Shown in pieces: positions 3-9,263 of a DNA stretch of 64,000 nt. Position 1 is the first letter of the stretch; every line of letters starts with the position of its first letter. This stretch comes from Roseomonas xinghualingensis (GTDB lineage: Bacteria; Pseudomonadota; Alphaproteobacteria; Acetobacterales; Acetobacteraceae), in contig NZ_JAOXLP010000002.1 of assembly GCF_025791835.1 (NCBI RefSeq), positions 62,001 through 126,000 of the forward strand. The letters are read 5' to 3'. Made by a program: the position numbers and the translations under genes. The notes beneath the pieces were generated by a model. That model worked only from the letters and a program-made list of their open reading frames with translations. It was not told where the DNA came from and ran no database searches.

Positions 3-821
3 ACGATGCTGTTCGATGAGGCGGAGGCGGAGCTGGTGGGCGAGGTGAATCGTGGCCTGCCCGCCATGTTCGCCATGATGAATGCCGCGCGGCTCGCGGT
101 AGGGGTGGAAGGCGTCGGCCAATGCGCCCGTGCCACCGTCCTGGCGGAGGCCTATGCGGCGGAGCGCGTGCAGGGCGGCCAGCCCATCGCATCCTATCCC
201 GATGTGGCGCGCATGCTGGGCGAAATGCGCGCCATCACCCAGGCGGCGCGGCTTCTCGCGCTGGATTGCGCCGTCTCGCTGGACCGGGCGAGGGCAGGGG
301 AGGCGGGCGCTGAAACACGCCTCGCGCTGCTGACGCCCATCGTGAAGGCCTGGTGCACCGATCGCGGGGTGGAGGTGGCAAGCCTCGGTATCCAGGTGCA
401 TGGCGGCGCCGGCTATGTGGAGGAGACGGGAGCCGCCCAGATCTGGCGGGATGCCCGGATCGCGCCGATCTATGAGGGGACCAACGGCATCCAGGCGATG
501 GATCTCCTTGCCCGCAAGTTGCCGCGCGAACTGCCTGCCTTCCTCGCTCTGTTGCGCGAGGCGGAACAAGCGCATCCCGCGCTGGAGGAGCCCGCCCGTG
601 CCCTGGCACAGGCTGCCGGGGAACTTGCCGCCGCACCCGCGGCGCAGGCCGGTGCCGCCGCCATGCCCTTCCTGGACGCGGCCGGCTGCGTGCTGGGCGG
701 CGCCTGGCTGGCCCGCGCGGCGGCCGCCGATCCAGCCTTCGAAGCAGAGGCGACCTTCTTCCTGAGGCGCCTCCTCCCGCGCGCCAAGGCCAGGCTCGCC
801 GAGGCGATGGCGCCCGCCTGA
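3..821 (+). CDS. acyl-CoA dehydrogenase, C-terminal part (5' end outside window)
   Basis: The reading frame is open to the left edge, so the gene begins upstream; only the C-terminal 270 or so residues are visible. They match the helical FAD-binding C-terminal domain of acyl-CoA dehydrogenases, with the family signature QVHGGAGYVEE followed by DARIAPIYEGTNGIQAMDL. This end resembles the long (about 590-residue) acyl-CoA/3-methylmercaptopropionyl-CoA dehydrogenase-like group, which oxidises acyl-CoA thioesters to enoyl-CoA using FAD and passes electrons to ETF. The exact substrate cannot be read from this part. It ends 102 bases before the carotenoid cluster on the same strand; there is no sign that it belongs to it. 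Confidence 0.85.
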   Translation, partial: TMLFDEAEAELVGEVNRGLPAMFAMMNAARLAVGVEGVGQCARATVLAEAYAAERVQGGQPIASYPDVARMLGEMRAITQAARLLALDCAVSLDRARAGEAGAETRLALLTPIVKAWCTDRGVEVASLGIQVHGGAGYVEETGAAQIWRDARIAPIYEGTNGIQAMDLLARKLPRELPAFLALLREAEQAHPALEEPARALAQAAGELAAAPAAQAGAAAMPFLDAAGCVLGGAWLARAAAADPAFEAEATFFLRRLLPRAKARLAEAMAPA

Positions 822-923: not shown

Positions 924-2483
924 ATGAACGCGCTCAGCCGCCCCGCCCTGCGTCCCGAACGGCCGCATGCCGTGGTCATCGGGGCTGGCCCGGGAGGGCT
1001 GGCCTCCGCCATGTTGCTGGCCGCGCGCGGGCTGCGCGTGACGGTGCTGGAGAAGGAACACGCCGTCGGCGGCCGCAGCCGCACCATCTCCAACTCGGGT
1101 GATGCGCCCGGCGGCTACCGCTTCGATCTCGGTCCCACCTTCTTCCTCTATCCGCGCATCCTGGCGGAGATCTTCGCCGAATGCGGCGCGCGGCTGGAGG
1201 ATGAGGTCGATCTGATCCGCCTCGATCCACAGTACCGGCTGGTTTTCGAGGGGGCGGGCAGCCACACCACGCTGGAGGCGACGCCGGACCTGGCCCGCAT
1301 GGAAGCCGAGGTGGCACGGCTGGACCCGCGCGATGCCGCTGGCGTGCGCCCTTTCATGGAGGAGAACCGCCGCAAGCTGGCAGCCTTCCGCCCCGTGCTG
1401 GAACGCGCCTTCAGCCGTGCCGCCGATCTCATGGCCCCCGACATGCTGCGCGCCCTGCCGCTGCTGCGTCCCGGCCGTTCGGTGGATACCGATCTGCGCC
1501 GGTACTTCCGTGATCCGCGCACGCGGCTCGCCTTTTCCTTCCAGTCCAAATACCTGGGGATGAGCCCGTTCCGCTGCCCCAGCCTCTTCACCATCCTTTC
1601 CTTCCTCGAATACGAGCATGGCGTGTTCCACCCGCGCGGCGGCTGCGGCAGCGTGGCGACGGCGATGGCGCATGTGGCCAGCGATCGGGGCGTGGAATTC
1701 CGCCTCGGCACCCCGGTGGACCGCATCGTCTTCGATGGCAACCGCGTGACGGGCGTGGAGGCGGGCGGCGCCTATATCGCCGCGGATGCGGTGGTGATGA
1801 ACGCCGATTTCGCCCATGCCATGCCGCGGCTGGTGCCGGATGCGATCCGCCGCAAATGGTCGGACCGGCGCATAGAGAAGGCGCGATACTCCTGCTCCAC
1901 CTTCATGCTCTATCTCGGCGTGGAGGGAGAGTTTCCGGAACTCGCGCACCACACCATCCTGCTGAGCGAGGACTACCAGCGGAACATCCGTGACATCGAG
2001 CAGGGCAAGGTGCCCGACACGCCGTCGCTCTACCTGCACAACCCGGTGGTGACGGACCGCTCCATGGCCCCGCCCGGCCATTCCAGCCTTTACTTGCTGG
2101 TGCCCGTGCCGAACCTGACGCATGGGCATGAATGGACCGAGGCCGATACCGCGCATTATCGCCGCCTGGCGCTGAAGCGCCTGCAGGTGCTGGGCGTGCC
2201 CGACATTGAATCCCGCATCCGCTACGAGAAGATCGTTACCCCTCGCGATTGGCGGGACGGGTTCAGCGTGGGCTACGGCGCCACCTTCAACCTGGCGCAT
2301 GACCTGCGGCAGATGCTGATGTTCCGTCCCGGAAACCGCTTCGGCGACACGCAGGGGCTTTATCTGGTCGGCGGCGGGACACATCCCGGCTCCGGCCTGC
2401 CGGTAATCTACGAAGGCGCGCGGATCAGCGCCAACCTGCTGCTGCGCGACCTGGGCCGCGCGCCCGTCTCGACGAGGATCTGA
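924..2483 (+). CDS. CrtI/CrtN-type carotenoid (squalene-route) desaturase
   Basis: A 519-residue FAD flavoprotein of the phytoene desaturase family. The N-terminus carries the dinucleotide-binding motif VVIGAGPGGLASA followed by a VGGRSRT segment, and the C-terminus has the family's second FAD signature (LYLVGGGTHPGSGLP at about residues 481-495). The family removes hydrogens from, or oxidises, linear isoprenoids at the membrane. A GGAG lies 5 bases before the ATG. It is the first of five tightly packed genes. With an HpnC/HpnD-type synthase at the end of the cluster, the likely substrate is a C30 squalene-type chain rather than C40 phytoene. Whether it acts as a CrtN desaturase, a CrtP-like oxidase, or an HpnE replacement cannot be settled from sequence alone. 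Confidence 0.85.
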   Translation: MNALSRPALRPERPHAVVIGAGPGGLASAMLLAARGLRVTVLEKEHAVGGRSRTISNSGDAPGGYRFDLGPTFFLYPRILAEIFAECGARLEDEVDLIRLDPQYRLVFEGAGSHTTLEATPDLARMEAEVARLDPRDAAGVRPFMEENRRKLAAFRPVLERAFSRAADLMAPDMLRALPLLRPGRSVDTDLRRYFRDPRTRLAFSFQSKYLGMSPFRCPSLFTILSFLEYEHGVFHPRGGCGSVATAMAHVASDRGVEFRLGTPVDRIVFDGNRVTGVEAGGAYIAADAVVMNADFAHAMPRLVPDAIRRKWSDRRIEKARYSCSTFMLYLGVEGEFPELAHHTILLSEDYQRNIRDIEQGKVPDTPSLYLHNPVVTDRSMAPPGHSSLYLLVPVPNLTHGHEWTEADTAHYRRLALKRLQVLGVPDIESRIRYEKIVTPRDWRDGFSVGYGATFNLAHDLRQMLMFRPGNRFGDTQGLYLVGGGTHPGSGLPVIYEGARISANLLLRDLGRAPVSTRI

Positions 2484-2485
2484 GC

Positions 2486-4084
2486 ATGTCAAAGGTCGCG
2501 GTGATCGGTGGCGGTCTTGGGGGGCTCGCGGCGGCCTGCGTGGCACAGGCGCGCGGGCATCAGGTGACGCTGTTCGACAAGAATGACTGGCTGGGCGGCA
2601 AGGCCGCCGTGCTGCATCTGGACGCGCCCGCGACACCGGGCGGGCGCAATGGCGGTGCCTTCCGCTTCGACATGGGGCCGACCATCCTCACCGTGCCCCG
2701 CGTGCTGCGCCGCATCTTCGCGGAAGCGGGCCGGGAGCAGGCACGTGACCTGCCGCTGATCCGGCTGGATCCGCAATGGCGCTGCTTCTTCGAGGACGGC
2801 ACGCGGATCGACCTGCGCGAGAATGTGGACGAGATGGCGCGGGCGATGGACGCCTTCGCGCCGGGCAATGGCGAGGGCTACCGCAGCTTCCAGGCAGCAT
2901 CGGAGAACCTGCACAGGATCTCCGAGGGGTTCTTCTTCTGGAAGTCCGTGGAGGGGTTGTCCGACACCATCGACTTCCGCGCCAATATGCGCGCGGACAC
3001 GCTGAAGGATGTGCTGGCGCTGCGCATGGGCCAGACGGTGGCCAAGGTCATCCGCGGCCATGTGCCCGATGCGCGGCTGGCGCAGATGCTGGATCATTAT
3101 TGCCAGTATGTCGGTTCCTCGCCCTATCTCGCGCCCGCCGTGCTCTGCGGGATCGGCGACATGCAGGCGAGCGAGGGCATCTGGTATCCCGTGGGCGGCA
3201 CGCGCGCGGTGGCGGAGGGATTGGCGAAGCTGGCGGAAAGCATCGGCGCCGAACTGCGTCCTGGCACGGAGGTCACGGGCCTCGACCTGCGCGATGGCGG
3301 CACGCGCGTCGCGGGCGTGGTGGCGAAGGGCGAGACCATTCCCTTCGATGCCGTGATCTCCAACATGGATGCCATCCGCACCTACAAGGAGCTGGTGGGC
3401 GGCAGGACAGGCCGCAAATACGAGAAGAAGGGCTTCGAGCCCGCCTGCTCGGGCGTCGTGCTCTATCTCGGCCTCAACCGCCGCTATGAGCATCTGGCGC
3501 ATCATGACTTCGTCTTCTCCCGCGATGCGGAGGAGGAGTTCGACGCGATCTACAGGAAGGGCATCCCGGCCCCCGATCCCACTGCCTATCTCGCGGCACC
3601 CTCCGGCACCGATCCTTCCGTGGCGCCGGATGGCGGGGAGGCGCTTTACGTGCTGGTGCACACGCCGCATCTGCGTCCGGGCCAGGACTGGTCGAAGATG
3701 CTGCCGCAATACCGGCAGGTGATCCTGGACAAGCTGAAGCGCACCGCCGGGATGGAGGATATCGAGGAGCGCATCGTGGTGGAGCGCGCGCTCACGCCGC
3801 AGGACATCCATGAGCGCTACAAGGTCCTGGATGGCGCCATCTACGGCCTTGCCTCGCATGGCGCATGGATGGGCGCCTTCAAGCCCGGCAACCGCTCCTC
3901 TGCTGTGAAGGGGCTGTATCTCGCGGGGGGCGCGGCGCATCCCGGGCCCGGCATGCCGATGGTGATGATGTCCGGCTGGATTGCCGCCGATGCGCTCGAC
4001 CGCGACATGGGTGGGCGCGGCATGTCCGAGGCGGCGGAGCGCGCAGGCATGCGCGAGGCCCTGCTGGCGCCAGCGGCCGAATAA
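2486..4084 (+). CDS. second CrtI/CrtN/CrtP-type carotenoid desaturase or oxidase
   Basis: A 532-residue paralogue of the preceding gene, starting 2 bases after its stop, so the two are translationally linked. It has the N-terminal FAD motif VAVIGGGLGGLAAA, a substrate-side motif FDMGPTILTVP typical of phytoene desaturases, and the C-terminal LYLAGGAAHPGPGMPMV signature. In C30 carotenoid clusters two such enzymes usually divide the work: one desaturates the squalene backbone (CrtN) and the other oxidises a terminal methyl group (CrtP). The FDMGPTI motif makes this one look more like a classical desaturase, but assigning the two roles is inference. Confidence 0.85.
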   Translation: MSKVAVIGGGLGGLAAACVAQARGHQVTLFDKNDWLGGKAAVLHLDAPATPGGRNGGAFRFDMGPTILTVPRVLRRIFAEAGREQARDLPLIRLDPQWRCFFEDGTRIDLRENVDEMARAMDAFAPGNGEGYRSFQAASENLHRISEGFFFWKSVEGLSDTIDFRANMRADTLKDVLALRMGQTVAKVIRGHVPDARLAQMLDHYCQYVGSSPYLAPAVLCGIGDMQASEGIWYPVGGTRAVAEGLAKLAESIGAELRPGTEVTGLDLRDGGTRVAGVVAKGETIPFDAVISNMDAIRTYKELVGGRTGRKYEKKGFEPACSGVVLYLGLNRRYEHLAHHDFVFSRDAEEEFDAIYRKGIPAPDPTAYLAAPSGTDPSVAPDGGEALYVLVHTPHLRPGQDWSKMLPQYRQVILDKLKRTAGMEDIEERIVVERALTPQDIHERYKVLDGAIYGLASHGAWMGAFKPGNRSSAVKGLYLAGGAAHPGPGMPMVMMSGWIAADALDRDMGGRGMSEAAERAGMREALLAPAAE

Positions 4085-4088
4085 CACC

Positions 4089-4883
4089 ATGCCGGAGCCG
4101 TCACCCCTCACATTGCGGGATGCGCGGCTCATCGGGTTCTTCCACCGTGCCTTCTCGCATTTCTTCCGCCGGCATATGGGCGCGTTGCGTATGCCGCCTT
4201 GGGGACTTCCCCAGGACGTGGCAGGCCGCCCCCTGATCGTGCTGGCCAACCATCCCTCATGGTGGGATGGGGTGGCCTTCATGCTGCTTCCCGTAAGGCT
4301 TTTCCCTGACCGCCGGACCTTCATCCCGATGGAGGCGGCGGCGCTGGCGAAATACCCTTTCATGCGGCGTATCGGCGTCTTTGGGATCGAGCCGGGCCCA
4401 CGCGGCGCCGTCGCCTTCCTTCGCACGGCTGGGGAAGTTCTGGCCTCGCCGGATGCCATGCTCTGGATGAACGCGCCCGGCCGCTTCCAGGATGTGCGCG
4501 AGCGCCCCGTCGCCATCGCGCCGGGCGTGACGCGCCTGCCGGAGATCGCGCCGGATGCCGTGGTTCTGCCGCTCGCCCTGGATTACGTGCTCTGGACTGA
4601 GCGCCGCCCCGAGATGCTCGCCGCCTTCGGCGCGCCGGTGGAAGCGCGCGAGCTTCTGGCGCTGGACCGCGAACTGCGTGAGGAGCGCATCCGCCAAGCG
4701 CTGACCGAAACCATGGACCGCCTCGCAGCCGAGGCCATCACCCGCGATCCCGCGCGCTTCGAGATCCTGGTCCAGGGAGCGGAGGGGATGGGCGGCTTCT
4801 ACGACCTGTGGCGCCGCATCAAGGCCCTGCTGCAAGGCCGCCGCTTCGATCCACGCCATGCACGCCGCGCCGGACCCCGCTAA
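4089..4883 (+). CDS. PlsC-like acyltransferase of the carotenoid cluster (CrtO-like role)
   Basis: A 264-residue protein of the lysophospholipid acyltransferase superfamily. The catalytic HX4D motif is seen as NHPSWWD near residue 57. The start at 4089 is chosen because it lies 4 bases after the previous stop; a longer frame would run into the desaturase. In staphyloxanthin-type pathways the final step is acylation of the sugar on a glycosyl carotenoid by a CrtO acyltransferase. Position between desaturases and a glycosyltransferase suggests the same role here, although true CrtO of Staphylococcus is not obviously similar. A general phospholipid role cannot be ruled out. Confidence 0.75.
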   Translation: MPEPSPLTLRDARLIGFFHRAFSHFFRRHMGALRMPPWGLPQDVAGRPLIVLANHPSWWDGVAFMLLPVRLFPDRRTFIPMEAAALAKYPFMRRIGVFGIEPGPRGAVAFLRTAGEVLASPDAMLWMNAPGRFQDVRERPVAIAPGVTRLPEIAPDAVVLPLALDYVLWTERRPEMLAAFGAPVEARELLALDRELREERIRQALTETMDRLAAEAITRDPARFEILVQGAEGMGGFYDLWRRIKALLQGRRFDPRHARRAGPR

Positions 4884-4906
4884 GCTGCGCGCCGTGAGGA
4901 AGGAGA

Positions 4907-6022
4907 ATGCAACACGGTGAGCAGGCCATGATGGATGTGCTGGCCTTGGCGCTTGCCGGCGTGCCCGCAAGCATGGCGGCAGTGAATCTCTGCCTTTCGC
5001 GCCAGGCAGCGGGAGTGCCGGCTGCCGATACGCATGTCTCCATCCTCATCCCCGCGCGCGACGAGGCGGTGAATATCGGCGCCTGCCTCGACGCCGCCCT
5101 CGCCAGCACCGGCGTGGCGGTGGAGGTGCTGGTGATGGATGACGGCTCGCGCGATGCCACCGCTGGTATCGTGGCCGCCCGCGCCGCCCGTGATCCACGC
5201 CTGCGCCTGCTGCATGCGCCCCCGCTGCCGCCGGGCTGGACAGGGAAGGTACATGCCTGCGCGAGGCTGGCCGAGGCCGCGCGCGGCACGCACCTCCTTT
5301 TCATCGACGCTGATGTGCGCCTGGCTCCGGAGGCGGCGGCGCGCATGGCCGGACACGCGCGGGCCCATGACATCGCCCTCGTCACCGGCGTGCCGCGCCA
5401 GCGCATGGGCACGCTGGGGGAGGGGCTGACCGTTCCCGCCATCAACCTGCTGATGATGGGCTACCTGCCCGGCGCCGGGCGCGCCTTCACCGCCCATCCC
5501 GTCATGGCCGCCGCCTGCGGCCAGCTCATCCTCGTGGAGCGCGGCGCCTATGAGGCGGTGGGCGGCCATGCCGCCTTCCGCCACCGGCTGCATGACGGGC
5601 TGGCCCTGTCCCGCAACCTCCGCGCCGCCGGGCACCGCACGGAGGTGGTGGATGGTGCGCCGCTGGCCGAATGCCGCATGTATTCAGGCTTCCAGGAGGC
5701 CTGGAACGGTTTCTTGAAGAATGCGCGCGAAGGCATGGCGACGCCCATCGGCCTTCCTATCTGGACCCTGCTGCTGGCAGGCGGCCATATCCTGCCCTGG
5801 CTGCTGTTGCCCTCGCCGCTGGCGGGTGCCGCGCTGATCCTCACCTATCTCACCCGCGCCGCCATCACCTGGCGGGGAAGGGAGCCCTCCTGGACCATCC
5901 CGCTGCACCCGGCCGCCGTCGCCGTGGCCCTGGCGATCCAGTGGACGGCTCTGGCTCGCTCCGTTCTGGGCCGCCCGGCAGGGTGGAAGGGCCGGGCCTA
6001 TCGCGCGGAGGGTGGCGCATGA
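4907..6022 (+). CDS. family 2 glycosyltransferase with C-terminal membrane segments (CrtQ-like)
   Basis: A 371-residue GT-A enzyme. VSILIPARDEAVNI begins the nucleotide-sugar-binding domain near residue 46, VLVMDDGSRD gives the first acidic loop, and FIDADVRL the DXD motif at about residue 132. After roughly residue 280 hydrophobic segments follow (LPIWTLLLAGGHILPWLLLP and ALILTYLTRAAI), as in membrane-anchored lipid glycosyltransferases. The ATG at 4907 sits only one base from an AGGAG, so ATG at 4928 or 4931 may be the true start. It overlaps the next gene by 4 bases (ATGA). In context it probably glycosylates a carboxylated C30 carotenoid, as CrtQ does in staphyloxanthin synthesis. Confidence 0.8.
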   Translation: MQHGEQAMMDVLALALAGVPASMAAVNLCLSRQAAGVPAADTHVSILIPARDEAVNIGACLDAALASTGVAVEVLVMDDGSRDATAGIVAARAARDPRLRLLHAPPLPPGWTGKVHACARLAEAARGTHLLFIDADVRLAPEAAARMAGHARAHDIALVTGVPRQRMGTLGEGLTVPAINLLMMGYLPGAGRAFTAHPVMAAACGQLILVERGAYEAVGGHAAFRHRLHDGLALSRNLRAAGHRTEVVDGAPLAECRMYSGFQEAWNGFLKNAREGMATPIGLPIWTLLLAGGHILPWLLLPSPLAGAALILTYLTRAAITWRGREPSWTIPLHPAAVAVALAIQWTALARSVLGRPAGWKGRAYRAEGGA

Positions 6023-7623
6023 GCGCGAGCATCGCCGCGGGCCCCCCGACACGCGGCCCGGACAGCGAGAACTTCCCCGTCGCCTCCCGCCTGCTGGCGC
6101 CTGCGGTGCGCGGGCGCGTCCTTGCCTTCTACCGGGTGGTGCGGCTGTCCGACGACATCGCGGATGCCGCCGATCTGGCGCCCGAGGAGAAGCTCCGCCG
6201 GCTGGACGCCATCGAGGCCGCGCTGGATGGCGCGCCGGGCGTCCCGGAGGCCACCGCGCTCCGCGAGAACGGCGCCGGGGTGGAAGAGGCGAAGACCATG
6301 CTCACCGCCTTCCGCCGCGATGCGCGCAACGAGGGCTGCGAGGATTGGGAAGCGCTGGCGGATTACTGCGCCCATTCCGCTGTGCCGGTCGGCCGCTTTC
6401 TGCTGCGCCTGCATGACGAAGGGACGCATGCCGCTATGCAGGCCGCGGATGCCCTCTGCACCGCGCTGCAGGTCCTGAACCATCTTCAGGACATGGGCGA
6501 GGACCGCGCCGCGCTGGGCCGCATCTACCTGCCGCGCTCCTGGATGGAAGCGGTGGGCGGCGAGAGCGCGGTATTCAACGAAGCGGCGCCGCGCCGGGCC
6601 TTGCTCGATGCCTTGCTGGACCGCACGGAAACCTTGCTCGACACCGCGGCGGCCCTGCCGCGCCTGCTCTGCAGCCGCCGCCTGGCGCTGGAATCCGCTG
6701 CCACCATCGGCTGCGCCCGCCGCCTTCTCTCCCGCCTCCGCACCGGTGATCCGGTTGCCTCCCGCGTCGCTTTGCCCAAGCCTGATGCCCTGACCGCCCT
6801 TGTCGCAGCCCCCTTCAACGGTCCCTCCGACGCCGCCCTCGTCCGTGCGCGCGTGACCCGTGCCGGCTCATCCTTCGCACGCGGTATGGCAAGCCTGCGT
6901 GGTGAGCGCCGCCGTGCTCTTCACGCCGTCTATGCCTTCTGCCGCGCCGTGGACGACATCGCCGACGGTGCCGCGCCTGAGGACGAGAAGCGCCGCTTCC
7001 TCGGCGAATGGCGCGCAAAGCTGGACAGGCCCGATTGCGCCCTCTCGCGCGAGCTTGCCCGCGCCCGCGCGCGCTTCGACCTGCCGAAATCCGAATGCCT
7101 TGCCATGATCGATGGCATGGAGACCGACGCCGCCGCGCGCCTGCGCATACCCGACGAAGCCGCGCTGGACCTCTATTGCCGCCGTGTCGCCGGCAGCGTC
7201 GGTGCCCTTTCCGTCCGTATCTTCGGCGCGCCGGAGGCCGAGGCCTTCGGCCTTGCCCTTGGCCGCACGCTGCAACTCGTGAACATCCTGCGCGACATCG
7301 ACGAGGATGCGGCGCGGGACCGCGTCTACATCCCCCTGTCATGGCTCGGCCCCGACGCCTCTGCCGAGGAACTCCTCGCCCGCCCCGATCTGCATGAGGC
7401 CTGCCACCGCCTCCTCACCCGGGCCGAGGAGGGCTTCGCCGCGGCCGAGGCGGCGCTGGCAGGAACCGATGCGAAGCCGCTCCGCCCCGCCCGGGTGATG
7501 ATGTGGGCTTATCGCCGCCTGTTCGATCGCCTCCTGGCCCGCGGCTTCCATCCGCCGCGCATCCGGCCAAGGCTCAGTGCCGGCGAGCGGGCGCGGTTGG
7601 CGGCAATGGCCCTGGGGTGGTGA
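6019..7623 (+). CDS. hpnC-hpnD: HpnC-HpnD fusion: squalene-pathway synthase pair in one polypeptide
   Basis: A 534-residue protein made of two complete trans-isoprenyl diphosphate synthase (squalene/phytoene synthase) domains. Residues 15-260 look like HpnC, with aspartate motifs SDDIAD (44-49) and NHLQDMGED (154-162). Residues 280-534 look like HpnD, with VDDIAD (311-316) and NILRDIDED (422-430). In known systems HpnD condenses two farnesyl diphosphates to presqualene diphosphate, HpnC converts it to hydroxysqualene, and the flavoprotein HpnE reduces that to squalene. HpnC and HpnD are normally separate adjacent genes; the single ORF with no stop or frameshift makes this a natural fusion. 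ATG overlaps the glycosyltransferase stop. No separate, obvious hpnE is in the cluster. Domain assignment is confident; the product is inferred. Confidence 0.85.
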   Translation: MSASIAAGPPTRGPDSENFPVASRLLAPAVRGRVLAFYRVVRLSDDIADAADLAPEEKLRRLDAIEAALDGAPGVPEATALRENGAGVEEAKTMLTAFRRDARNEGCEDWEALADYCAHSAVPVGRFLLRLHDEGTHAAMQAADALCTALQVLNHLQDMGEDRAALGRIYLPRSWMEAVGGESAVFNEAAPRRALLDALLDRTETLLDTAAALPRLLCSRRLALESAATIGCARRLLSRLRTGDPVASRVALPKPDALTALVAAPFNGPSDAALVRARVTRAGSSFARGMASLRGERRRALHAVYAFCRAVDDIADGAAPEDEKRRFLGEWRAKLDRPDCALSRELARARARFDLPKSECLAMIDGMETDAAARLRIPDEAALDLYCRRVAGSVGALSVRIFGAPEAEAFGLALGRTLQLVNILRDIDEDAARDRVYIPLSWLGPDASAEELLARPDLHEACHRLLTRAEEGFAAAEAALAGTDAKPLRPARVMMWAYRRLFDRLLARGFHPPRIRPRLSAGERARLAAMALGW

Positions 7624-7677: not shown

Positions 7678-8340
7678 TCAGGCAAGGTGCCGCAGGCCGG
7701 CGCGGATGGCCTCGGCCATGGCGGAAGCGGACTGCGCGCCGGAAATGATGAGCTGCCGGTCAAGGATCACGGCCGGCACGCCGCCCAGCCCGGCGGCCCG
7801 CGCGGCTTCGCGCTGGATGTCACTGGCCCCTTCCTCGCCCGCCAGCATGGAAGCGGAAAGGCCGGGCGGCAGGCCCGATGCATCGCCGATTGCCGCCAGC
7901 ACCGCCGCATCGCCGATATCGCGGCCTTCGGCGAAATAGGCGGAGAAAATGGCTTCTACCACACGGTCGGCCATCTCCGCTCCGCCATGCAGGGCGGCGA
8001 GGCGGATCAGGCGATGGCTGTCGAGCGAATTCGGGCTGATGGTGATCCGCTCGAAATCGAAGGGGATGCCGTCCTTGGCGCCCTCGGCGGCAAGCCGTGC
8101 ATCGAGCTGTTTGCCACGTTCCACACTGCCGAATTTCTTCGCGCGGTACTCGGCGCGCGGCATGCCGCCCTTGGGCATGTCCGGATTGAGCTGGAAGGGA
8201 TGCCACTGCCGCGAAAGCCGGGGCCCTTCCTCCGCAAGCATCGCCAACGCCGCATCCAGCCGCCGCTTGCCCACCCAGCACCAGGGGCAGACCGTATCCA
8301 CGACGACGAGAAGCGTCGTCCGCGCATCATCCTGCGACAT
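7678..8340 (-). CDS. DsbA-family FrnE-like oxidoreductase
   Basis: A 220-residue thioredoxin-fold protein of the DsbA/FrnE group (often labelled polyketide biosynthesis dithiol-disulfide isomerase). The active-site CPWC lies near residue 21 in VVDTVCPWCWVGKRRL, and the cis-proline loop is GVPAVI near the C-terminus, followed by ISGAQS as in FrnE proteins. No signal peptide is visible, so it should be cytoplasmic. The start at 8340 has a GGAGG 7 bases upstream; the longer frame has no such support. It faces the carotenoid cluster but is transcribed towards it and is probably unrelated to it. Confidence 0.85.
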   Translation of the reverse strand: MSQDDARTTLLVVVDTVCPWCWVGKRRLDAALAMLAEEGPRLSRQWHPFQLNPDMPKGGMPRAEYRAKKFGSVERGKQLDARLAAEGAKDGIPFDFERITISPNSLDSHRLIRLAALHGGAEMADRVVEAIFSAYFAEGRDIGDAAVLAAIGDASGLPPGLSASMLAGEEGASDIQREAARAAGLGGVPAVILDRQLIISGAQSASAMAEAIRAGLRHLA

Positions 8341-8510
8341 GGCGATTCCTCCGGCTCTCAGGCAGCGGGCATGGAACCATGTGTACGGTCCCACAGCCAT
8401 CCACTCGGGTGGCGCGCAATGCTCCATGTGAACGCCACGATTTCGTGAAACGGAGGCTTTGGCGGCTCGTGCGTTTCTTGGCTGGTGCAACAACCCGGTG
8501 GAACGAGACA

Positions 8511-9263
8511 ATGCGCAAGGGATTTCTCCTCGCCGGGCTGCTGGCGCTTGGTGGTTGCTTCGAGGAGGCGCCGCCCAGGGCCGAGTCCGGGGCGACGGCA
8601 CCGAAGGAGGATGTGGCGGACCGTGTGAAGATGGCGGCCCAGGAGCGCCTGCGCGACATCGCGCGCGATCCCGAAGCCCTGCGCTTCCGCGCGATGGAAC
8701 TCCACCGCCAGGCGATGGCGGATACCTATGCTGTCTGCGGTCAGGCGACGGTGATGGGCAGCACCGTGTTCATCCCCTTCGTCTCGGTGGTGAACGTGGC
8801 GGATGGCGAAATGAAGGTTGAGCAGCATGTCGGCCGCTCGAACATCGAGGCGACGCGTGTCTATGTGGAGATGGTCGGGCGTTGCTTCGATGGCGGCGGC
8901 CCGATGATGCGCGCCGGAGGGACAGCGGTGGCGCAACCGACGCCGCCCCTGCCCACCGGCCTGCCGATCCTTGAGCAGGCTCCGCCGGAGCCGCCGAAGC
9001 AGGTCGATATGGTCAGTGCCGCGTCCCCCGCTCCGGCGAACGAGCCGTCCGGGCGGACACTCGTCATGCGCCAGAACGGCAATGTCCGGGCCGCGCCGGG
9101 TGGTGGCGGCGAGGTGTTGCGGGTGGCACGCACGGGGGCGGTGCTGAACGTCTTCGGCACAGCGCCGGGCGGTTGGTACCGGGTGGGAGACACGACGCCG
9201 GAGGGCTGGGTGCATGGCAGCCTCGTCTCCCTGCCATCGGGGACCCTGGCCTCGATGCATTAG
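8511..9263 (+). CDS. lipoprotein with C-terminal SH3-like domain
   Basis: A 250-residue secreted protein. The start at 8511 gives a short signal peptide with lipobox LGGC (Cys16), predicting lipid attachment. The middle holds a helical stretch and two cysteines, then a proline-rich linker (residues about 145-180), and finally an SH3b-like domain beginning at NGNVRAAPGGGGEVL and ending with GGWYRVGDTTPEGWVHGSLV. Such domains bind peptidoglycan or act as protein contacts in the envelope. The stop codon abuts the outer end of the IS remnant that follows, so the natural C-terminus may have been altered. Specific function unknown. Confidence 0.75.
   Translation: MRKGFLLAGLLALGGCFEEAPPRAESGATAPKEDVADRVKMAAQERLRDIARDPEALRFRAMELHRQAMADTYAVCGQATVMGSTVFIPFVSVVNVADGEMKVEQHVGRSNIEATRVYVEMVGRCFDGGGPMMRAGGTAVAQPTPPLPTGLPILEQAPPEPPKQVDMVSAASPAPANEPSGRTLVMRQNGNVRAAPGGGGEVLRVARTGAVLNVFGTAPGGWYRVGDTTPEGWVHGSLVSLPSGTLASMH

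Follow-up and report, generated by a model that had tools for sequence, protein, structure and literature searches.

Squalene genes divided between a carotenoid cluster with a fused hpnCD gene and a hopanoid operon in Roseomonas xinghualingensis

The DNA analysed here (the window) is a stretch of 64,000 nucleotides from Roseomonas xinghualingensis (assembly GCF_025791835.1, contig NZ_JAOXLP010000002.1, positions 62,001 to 126,000), and the gene in question, hpnCD, lies at 6019..7623 of its forward strand, where it encodes HpnC and HpnD, two of the three enzymes of the HpnC-HpnD-HpnE route to squalene, as a single fused protein. As read from gene content, the notable point is that this three-step pathway is divided over two operons with complementary absences, both in the window genome (G000) and in its sister G154: the carotenoid cluster of the window holds hpnCD without hpnE, and the hopanoid operon holds hpnD and hpnE without hpnC. 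Since the only HpnC domain is in HpnCD and the only HpnE in the hopanoid operon, squalene synthesis in this cell seems to depend on the two operons together. We consider it probable that HpnCD and the hopanoid-operon HpnE jointly supply squalene for C30 carotenoids and hopanoids, redundant gene sets having been lost differentially.

Complementary gene sets in the window genome and its genus

The window genome is a draft of 132 contigs, and both loci lie inside contigs. In a draw of 150 genomes of the family, the window's own included (all prevalence counts given here rest on drawn genomes), an hpnE-like gene follows hpnCD in 27 of the 27 other fusion loci of the window's type; two of these loci run into a contig end, and a third (L102, from G088) is fragmented in its assembly. 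There, the matches to crtN, crtP and hpnE are each split up, which looks like sequencing frameshifts. The hpnCD-hpnE pair also occurs away from the pigment cluster, in four of the 27 loci (L109, L111, L115 and L117) that have no crt genes in the stretch read. The carotenoid-type HpnE is itself divergent: that of G003 reaches 235 bits, below the cut-off of 283. The direct neighbour of hpnCD in the window is a dsbA-like gene that in close relatives lies beyond hpnE. Behind hpnCD in the five genomes without hpnE, a protein search for a remnant found none (best E 0.025), and the matches from a nucleotide search were no larger than chance would give; in the window, the best one covers 27 bases within dsbA. 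Unrelated frames occupy the place of hpnE in G150 and G160 (L176 10682-11774 and L178 10605-11401); by eye, one is phosphoribosylanthranilate-isomerase-like and one SRPBCC-like.

The hopanoid operon of the window genome lies on another contig (C46) and reads hpnA-hpnB-hpnD-hpnE-shc, with hpnH beside it and no hpnC; genomes of the genus with the complete order read hpnA-hpnB-hpnC-hpnD-hpnE-shc. The HpnC model matches in three places of the genome, the two fused halves and the HpnD of C46, leaving the fused half as the sole HpnC. HpnD is present twice, as the fused half and in C46 (315 bits), and HpnE above cut-off once, in C46 (405 bits), where a single-copy squalene-hopene cyclase gene adjoins it. 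C63 was rejected as a second HpnE: it matches the family at 92 bits over its full length, but PRK07233 at 491.8 bits, above the PRK07233 cut-off. No significant alignment was found between C63 and carotenoid-type HpnE.

Comparison of all 15 genomes offered for the genus, with HpnE called at E<=1e-30, resolves four arrangements. State A, in seven genomes (G003, G151, G152, G155, G158, G161 and G159), combines hpnCD and a carotenoid-type hpnE with a hopanoid locus of hpnA, hpnB, shc and hpnH that has no hpnC, hpnD or hpnE; the exceptions are G152, in which no hpnA or hpnB was seen next to shc, and G159, where the contig breaks off right before hpnE and neither hpnCD nor crtP was found. State B (G000 and G154) has hpnCD without hpnE, and hpnD and hpnE in the hopanoid operon. 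State C (G150, G157 and G160) also has hpnCD without hpnE, and of the three genes its hopanoid operon carries hpnE only. State D (G102, G153 and G156) has a crt cluster without hpnCD or hpnE, and hpnC, hpnD and hpnE all in the hopanoid operon. Every one of the 15 genomes has exactly one HpnE at this threshold (seven of the carotenoid-cluster type, eight of the hopanoid type), weaker paralogues such as C63 having been examined in G000 alone. Exactly one HpnC domain was found in 14 genomes (through the HpnD model, E<=1e-10); in the remaining genome a contig ends at that place. All 15 carry shc. That the two HpnE paralogues never occur together in these genomes may mean that carrying both is selected against.

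Gene trees were built from the crt genes (G159 left out) and, separately, from the hopanoid genes. States B, C and D are clades on both, with starred support except for B on the crt tree: B has 100/99 (starred) on the hopanoid tree and 92/98 on the crt tree, and C has 100/100 (starred) on each. State A is not a single clade. On the crt tree, the carotenoid-type hpnE changes at least twice, and a clade of B plus C, equivalent to a single hpnE loss, is weakly supported (55/33).

From gene content and synteny, which were observed directly, we infer the enzyme activities, the shared pool and the losses of the following scheme. The HpnD half would join two farnesyl diphosphates to presqualene diphosphate and the HpnC half would convert this to hydroxysqualene, as the earlier note on this DNA had also proposed; the chemistry of HpnD, HpnC and HpnE is taken by analogy from separate enzymes, as described in passages of PMC7839719 and PMC6439483. 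In most relatives, the adjoining hpnE product would then remove the hydroxyl, giving squalene for carotenoid desaturation and, where a cyclase is present, for hopanoids. In the window genome, the HpnE of the hopanoid operon would finish squalene for both pathways, and the hopanoid branch would take its hydroxysqualene from HpnCD, an enzyme of the carotenoid operon. The genus likely began with two redundant squalene gene sets, of which different lineages dropped different members. A more tentative extension, possible rather than probable, is that the two pathways are mutually dependent, hopanoids needing the HpnC half of the pigment operon and the pigment needing the HpnE of the hopanoid operon, with hydroxysqualene rather than squalene as the crossing metabolite and HpnE as the control point.

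The fused gene and its distribution

The frame of hpnCD opens with ATG at 6019, its start overlapping the stop of the preceding glycosyltransferase gene (which ends at 6022), and runs with zero internal stops to a stop codon ending at 7623. Its features are listed below (aa, amino acids; HMM, hidden Markov model).

6019..7623, + strand: hpnCD (HpnC+HpnD fusion), 534 aa; open frame, NCBIfam TIGR03464 and TIGR03465, domain tree
6061..6810, + strand: HpnC domain, residues 15-264; NCBIfam TIGR03464, C clade of the domain tree (99, starred)
6151..6165, + strand: HpnC half, first aspartate motif, D45 D46 I A D49; three Asp invariant in 54/54
6490..6504, + strand: HpnC half, second aspartate motif, D158 ... 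D162; both Asp invariant in 54/54
6811..6852, + strand: linker between HMM matches, residues 265-278; gap between the TIGR03464 and TIGR03465 matches
6853..7605, + strand: HpnD domain, residues 279-529; NCBIfam TIGR03465
6952..6966, + strand: HpnD half, first aspartate motif, D312 D313 I A D316; three Asp invariant in 54/54
7294..7308, + strand: HpnD half, second aspartate motif, D426 ... D430; both Asp invariant in 54/54

The earlier note had read this 534-residue frame as two squalene/phytoene synthase domains with their aspartate motifs, in the order HpnC then HpnD, and both statements hold. The ten catalytic aspartates of the four motifs are identical across all 54 aligned fused proteins. 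When the protein is cut after residue 274 and the halves are scored separately against NCBIfam, the N-terminal half gives 219.1 bits for HpnC, 98.2 for HpnD and 59.6 for the best CrtB model, and the C-terminal half 230.0 for HpnD, 99.7 for HpnC and 79.0 for the best CrtB model, so that each half prefers its own family by more than 100 bits. Each nevertheless stays under the NCBI curated cut-off (250.45 bits for TIGR03464, 278.6 for TIGR03465), the whole protein reaching 308.4 and 315.7 bits through the second domain adding up; both halves are thus divergent family members.

A domain tree of 105 rows, built by a quick method from 50 C rows, 51 D rows and four outgroup rows, gives the same identities. 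All 50 C rows (31 fused, 19 separate) form a single clade (99, starred). Fifty of the 51 D rows share a common branch (81), and 41 of them, including the window's half, which groups with separate HpnD rows, are united at 91 (not starred); the nine D rows outside this group are two long single rows and seven weak D-like rows that group together (100, starred), and the remaining row, L237, falls outside everything on a very long branch. The outgroup rows, whose best match is phytoene synthase (263-393 bits), branch away at 100 (starred). Judged by these scores and this tree, the halves are HpnC and HpnD, separate from phytoene synthases. Fused and separate rows are intermixed for both halves, so fusion or fission has occurred more than once.

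Other origins of the frame were rejected. The earlier note had named two ways in which the fusion could dissolve, a frameshift or stop at the junction and a common phytoene-synthase clade for both halves; the domain tree rejects the latter, and a frameshift or chance frame is rejected by a frame that is open here and equally in 53 of 53 related loci chosen as fused, each in a single frame, which also makes an assembly error behind the fusion unlikely. A recent tandem duplication was discarded as well, the halves being 36% identical over a 147-column stretch and lying in different clades. The domains match solved members of the squalene/phytoene synthase fold structurally, the fit of the HpnC half being not clear. 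In the passage of PMC7839719 on Neisseria HpnD, Arg15 corresponds to CrtM Ser19; in the window protein this position is Gly283 (alignment to 8is6), and it is Gly in 44 of 54 fused proteins and, by eye, in the separate HpnD of G102, which is above cut-off. As a product marker, Arg15 does not tell the cases apart.

The fusion is real, but it is already known and ordinary for this group. Many genomes do keep hpnC and hpnD apart, which the earlier note took as the normal state, yet fusions are common in the family and the class, and the fusion cannot be called new, having been in print since 2017: a passage of PMC5462960 reports hpnCD in Acidobacteria of subdivision 2 and mentions Actinobacteria and Rhodospirillum centenum. 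In the family draw, 26 of 150 genomes match the fused protein over its full length, two more have matches cut by contig ends and two have distant ones (40-45%), which makes at least 30 fusion-bearing genomes of 150; the two distant fusions are located in ordinary hopanoid operons. From a class draw of 385 genomes, 16 outside the family that, among the matches listed, spanned both halves without a stop were retrieved, and in all 16, from eight families, the fusion is a single open frame. Another four spanning matches, each with an internal stop, were left out. Some of these class fusions lie in hopanoid operons (hpnA-hpnB-hpnCD-hpnE-shc) and some adjoin a crtP-like gene.

The pigment cluster and related systems

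Around hpnCD, the window carries the following genes and sites (FAD, flavin adenine dinucleotide).

924..2483, + strand: crtN-like FAD desaturase (CrtI family), 519 aa; NCBIfam crtI_fam 510.8 bits, syntenic in relatives
2486..4084, + strand: crtP-like FAD oxidase/desaturase (CrtI family), 532 aa; NCBIfam crtI_fam 391.3 bits
4089..4883, + strand: acyltransferase-like gene (crtO position); weak Pfam Acyltransferase match, 19.5 bits against a cut-off of 23, syntenic
4907..6022, + strand: family 2 glycosyltransferase (crtQ position); Pfam Glycos_transf_2, 66 bits
7624..7677, no strand: hpnE site of relatives, 54 bases between hpnCD and the dsbA-like gene; synteny, remnant search
7678..8601, - strand: dsbA-like gene (longest frame); Pfam DSBA 116.5 bits, synteny

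The four genes upstream of hpnCD bear out the carotenoid-cluster setting described earlier: crtN, crtP, acyltransferase and glycosyltransferase, the gene set of a squalene-route C30 cluster, stand together at 924-6022, the acyltransferase match being weak. The names CrtN and CrtP were assigned by position and analogy; of the 14 other genomes of the genus, 13 have an orthologue of the crtP-like gene, at 81-92% identity. The start of the acyltransferase-like gene was picked by eye using the L097 orthologue, and the glycosyltransferase also has CruG- and HpnB-like NCBIfam matches under their cut-offs. No aldehyde dehydrogenase gene (aldH) is among the cluster genes identified, although no search aimed at aldH was made. 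An acyl-CoA dehydrogenase gene (window 6-821, Pfam 102.8 bits) precedes crtN here and in many related clusters. As for a C40 phytoene synthase, the remaining family match in the genome (G000:C66, 280 aa) reaches 54.6 bits with HpnD and has no match to any CrtB model; it was set aside as a presumed distant paralogue, no separate crtB search having been made. A second carotenoid-type locus, with a phytoene-synthase-like gene beside a crtN-like one, was seen in L182 (G157:C98), L129 (G104:C41) and L131 (G035:C483), two of the three also having a crtP-like gene; these loci perhaps encode a C40 pigment.

Named relatives with the pigment cluster include Roseomonas, Pararoseomonas, Neoroseomonas, Falsiroseomonas and Microvirga. 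Eleven loci (L075-L078, L082-L085, L087, L088 and L096), from these five genera and a metagenome-assembled genome labelled Frigidibacter, share the cluster order, with HpnCD 53-83% identical over the best segment; they keep hpnE, whereas the window does not. Four other named loci (L079, L080, L081 and L086) are without hpnE, as in the window.

Among published systems, the fused hpnCD of subdivision 2 Acidobacteria, certain Actinobacteria and Rhodospirillum centenum is alike in being one HpnC-HpnD gene of about twice the usual size, but according to the passage of PMC5462960 the acidobacterial gene lies within a hopanoid cluster, unlike the window's hpnCD in a C30 carotenoid cluster with no neighbouring hpnE. 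Methylobacterium extorquens AM1, as described in part of PMC10448405, likewise feeds squalene from HpnCDE to CrtN/CrtP, a glycosyltransferase and an acyltransferase, with hopanoids sharing the precursor; there, however, both branches draw on a single hpnC-hpnD-hpnE set next to the cyclase gene, whereas in the window genome hpnC and hpnE are in different operons and hpnC is fused to hpnD. Azospirillum brasilense Sp7 uses hpnCDE and crtNPOQ for a dispensable C30 pigment, and the relevant passage of PMC13274349 places its hpnCDE together at a single locus, unlike in the window genome. The locus numbers in a passage of PMC8590665 put the hpnE of Rhodopila near shc and its hpnC-hpnD elsewhere, as in the window genome; hpnC and hpnD have separate locus numbers there, and that passage states no link to a carotenoid cluster. 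In the open-licence literature searched, no report of an hpnC/hpnE split between carotenoid and hopanoid operons turned up.

Competing explanations and significance

Several observations weigh against a joint supply of squalene from the two operons. Where shc is present, one HpnE per genome could reflect the need of hopanoids alone; a fused HpnD that suffices would leave the second HpnD, in the hopanoid operon, without an explanation; both halves of HpnCD, taken singly, are under their curated HMM cut-offs; the genome is a draft of 132 contigs; and loss rather than gain is what we infer. With regard to the second HpnD, the ratio of nonsynonymous to synonymous change (pN/pS) of the hopanoid-operon hpnD between G000 and G154, a single pair, is 0.34, the highest of 13 genes (the rest 0.14-0.25), a hint that the spare hpnD may be under relaxed constraint. 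The control is mixed: in two state D pairs, where hpnD is not redundant, its pN/pS (0.18 and 0.22) exceeds that of hpnA, hpnB, hpnC and shc (0.04-0.13) and is below that of hpnE (0.23 and 0.26). With regard to HpnE, six of 31 fusion genomes searched have no cyclase match (E<=1e-30); five of the six have an HpnE match, which supports a need for HpnE in the carotenoid branch, and the sixth, G087, has a fragment at a contig end.

This last count also bears on the idea that CrtN or CrtP acts on hydroxysqualene itself, HpnE being dispensable for carotenoids and the remaining copy serving hopanoids only. The clusters of G000, G154, G150, G157 and G160 would suit it, having no hpnE and yet crtN and crtP that are present and similar. 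However, hpnE is kept beside hpnCD in all 27 other fusion loci of the type and persists in the genomes without cyclase, and a passage of PMC13274349 reports that in A. brasilense deletion of crtNPOQ leads to squalene build-up and deletion of hpnCDE abolishes the pigment; we regard this explanation as improbable. That the missing genes (hpnE behind hpnCD, or the hopanoid hpnC) are absent from the assembly only is scarcely credible: the genome is a draft, but both loci are internal to contigs with the expected flanking genes on each side, and both absences recur in G154 and in three more genomes, the latter without hpnD too.

The earlier note had proposed the fusion as a candidate channelling enzyme. 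On this reading, the D half would hand its presqualene diphosphate to the C half in private, and the fusion would exist for that reason. An AlphaFold2 model (mean predicted local distance difference test score, pLDDT, 93.0; predicted template modelling score, pTM, 0.91) places the halves confidently relative to each other, its weakest block beyond the N-terminal 20 residues being residues 281-290 (74), and among the first 42 fused proteins of the alignment the P245-F286 spacing ranges over 38-45 residues, 31 of them having 40 (the remaining 12 proteins have 41-58). The model and the near-constant linker fit a fixed arrangement of the halves and are silent on substrate passage. The mixing of fused and separate rows on the domain tree makes fusion (or fission) recurrent, a further point in favour of channelling. 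On the other side, the three state D genomes have the same crtN-crtP-acyltransferase-glycosyltransferase genes with only separate HpnC and HpnD, so the fusion is not needed for supply, and separate enzymes can apparently serve the pigment genes as well. The window genome also keeps a free HpnD whose product is usable by the fused HpnC half only. Channelling as the reason for the fusion is accordingly doubtful.

Horizontal replacement, in which the hopanoid-type hpnD-hpnE was imported rather than retained from an ancestor with two full sets, is to our mind about equally unlikely. Two full sets in the ancestor of the genus would require parallel losses elsewhere: the one out-of-genus fusion genome read with a separate hopanoid operon (G127, L128) has hpnA-hpnB-shc without hpnC, hpnD or hpnE, and the family's other fusion genomes of the type have at most one HpnE match, of the carotenoid type. 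Yet the hpnC, hpnD and hpnE of the genus occupy the usual site between hpnB and shc, and in the tree, which bears on this question through HpnC and HpnD rows, the hopanoid HpnD rows of the genus group beside a Sphingomonas operon with the same gene order (82, not starred), as do the HpnC rows (100, starred).

Joint supply by HpnCD and the hopanoid-operon HpnE has consequences for how such genomes are read. A search for hpnC, hpnD and hpnE side by side would score this organism squalene-negative at either locus, and the genes absent from the hopanoid operon in this genus are found in the carotenoid cluster. With its four divisions of a three-step pathway over two operons, the genus amounts to a natural swap experiment, one that bears on whether the HpnE paralogues are interchangeable, on whether the fused HpnCD needs a matched HpnE, and on how lipid and pigment are balanced from one precursor.

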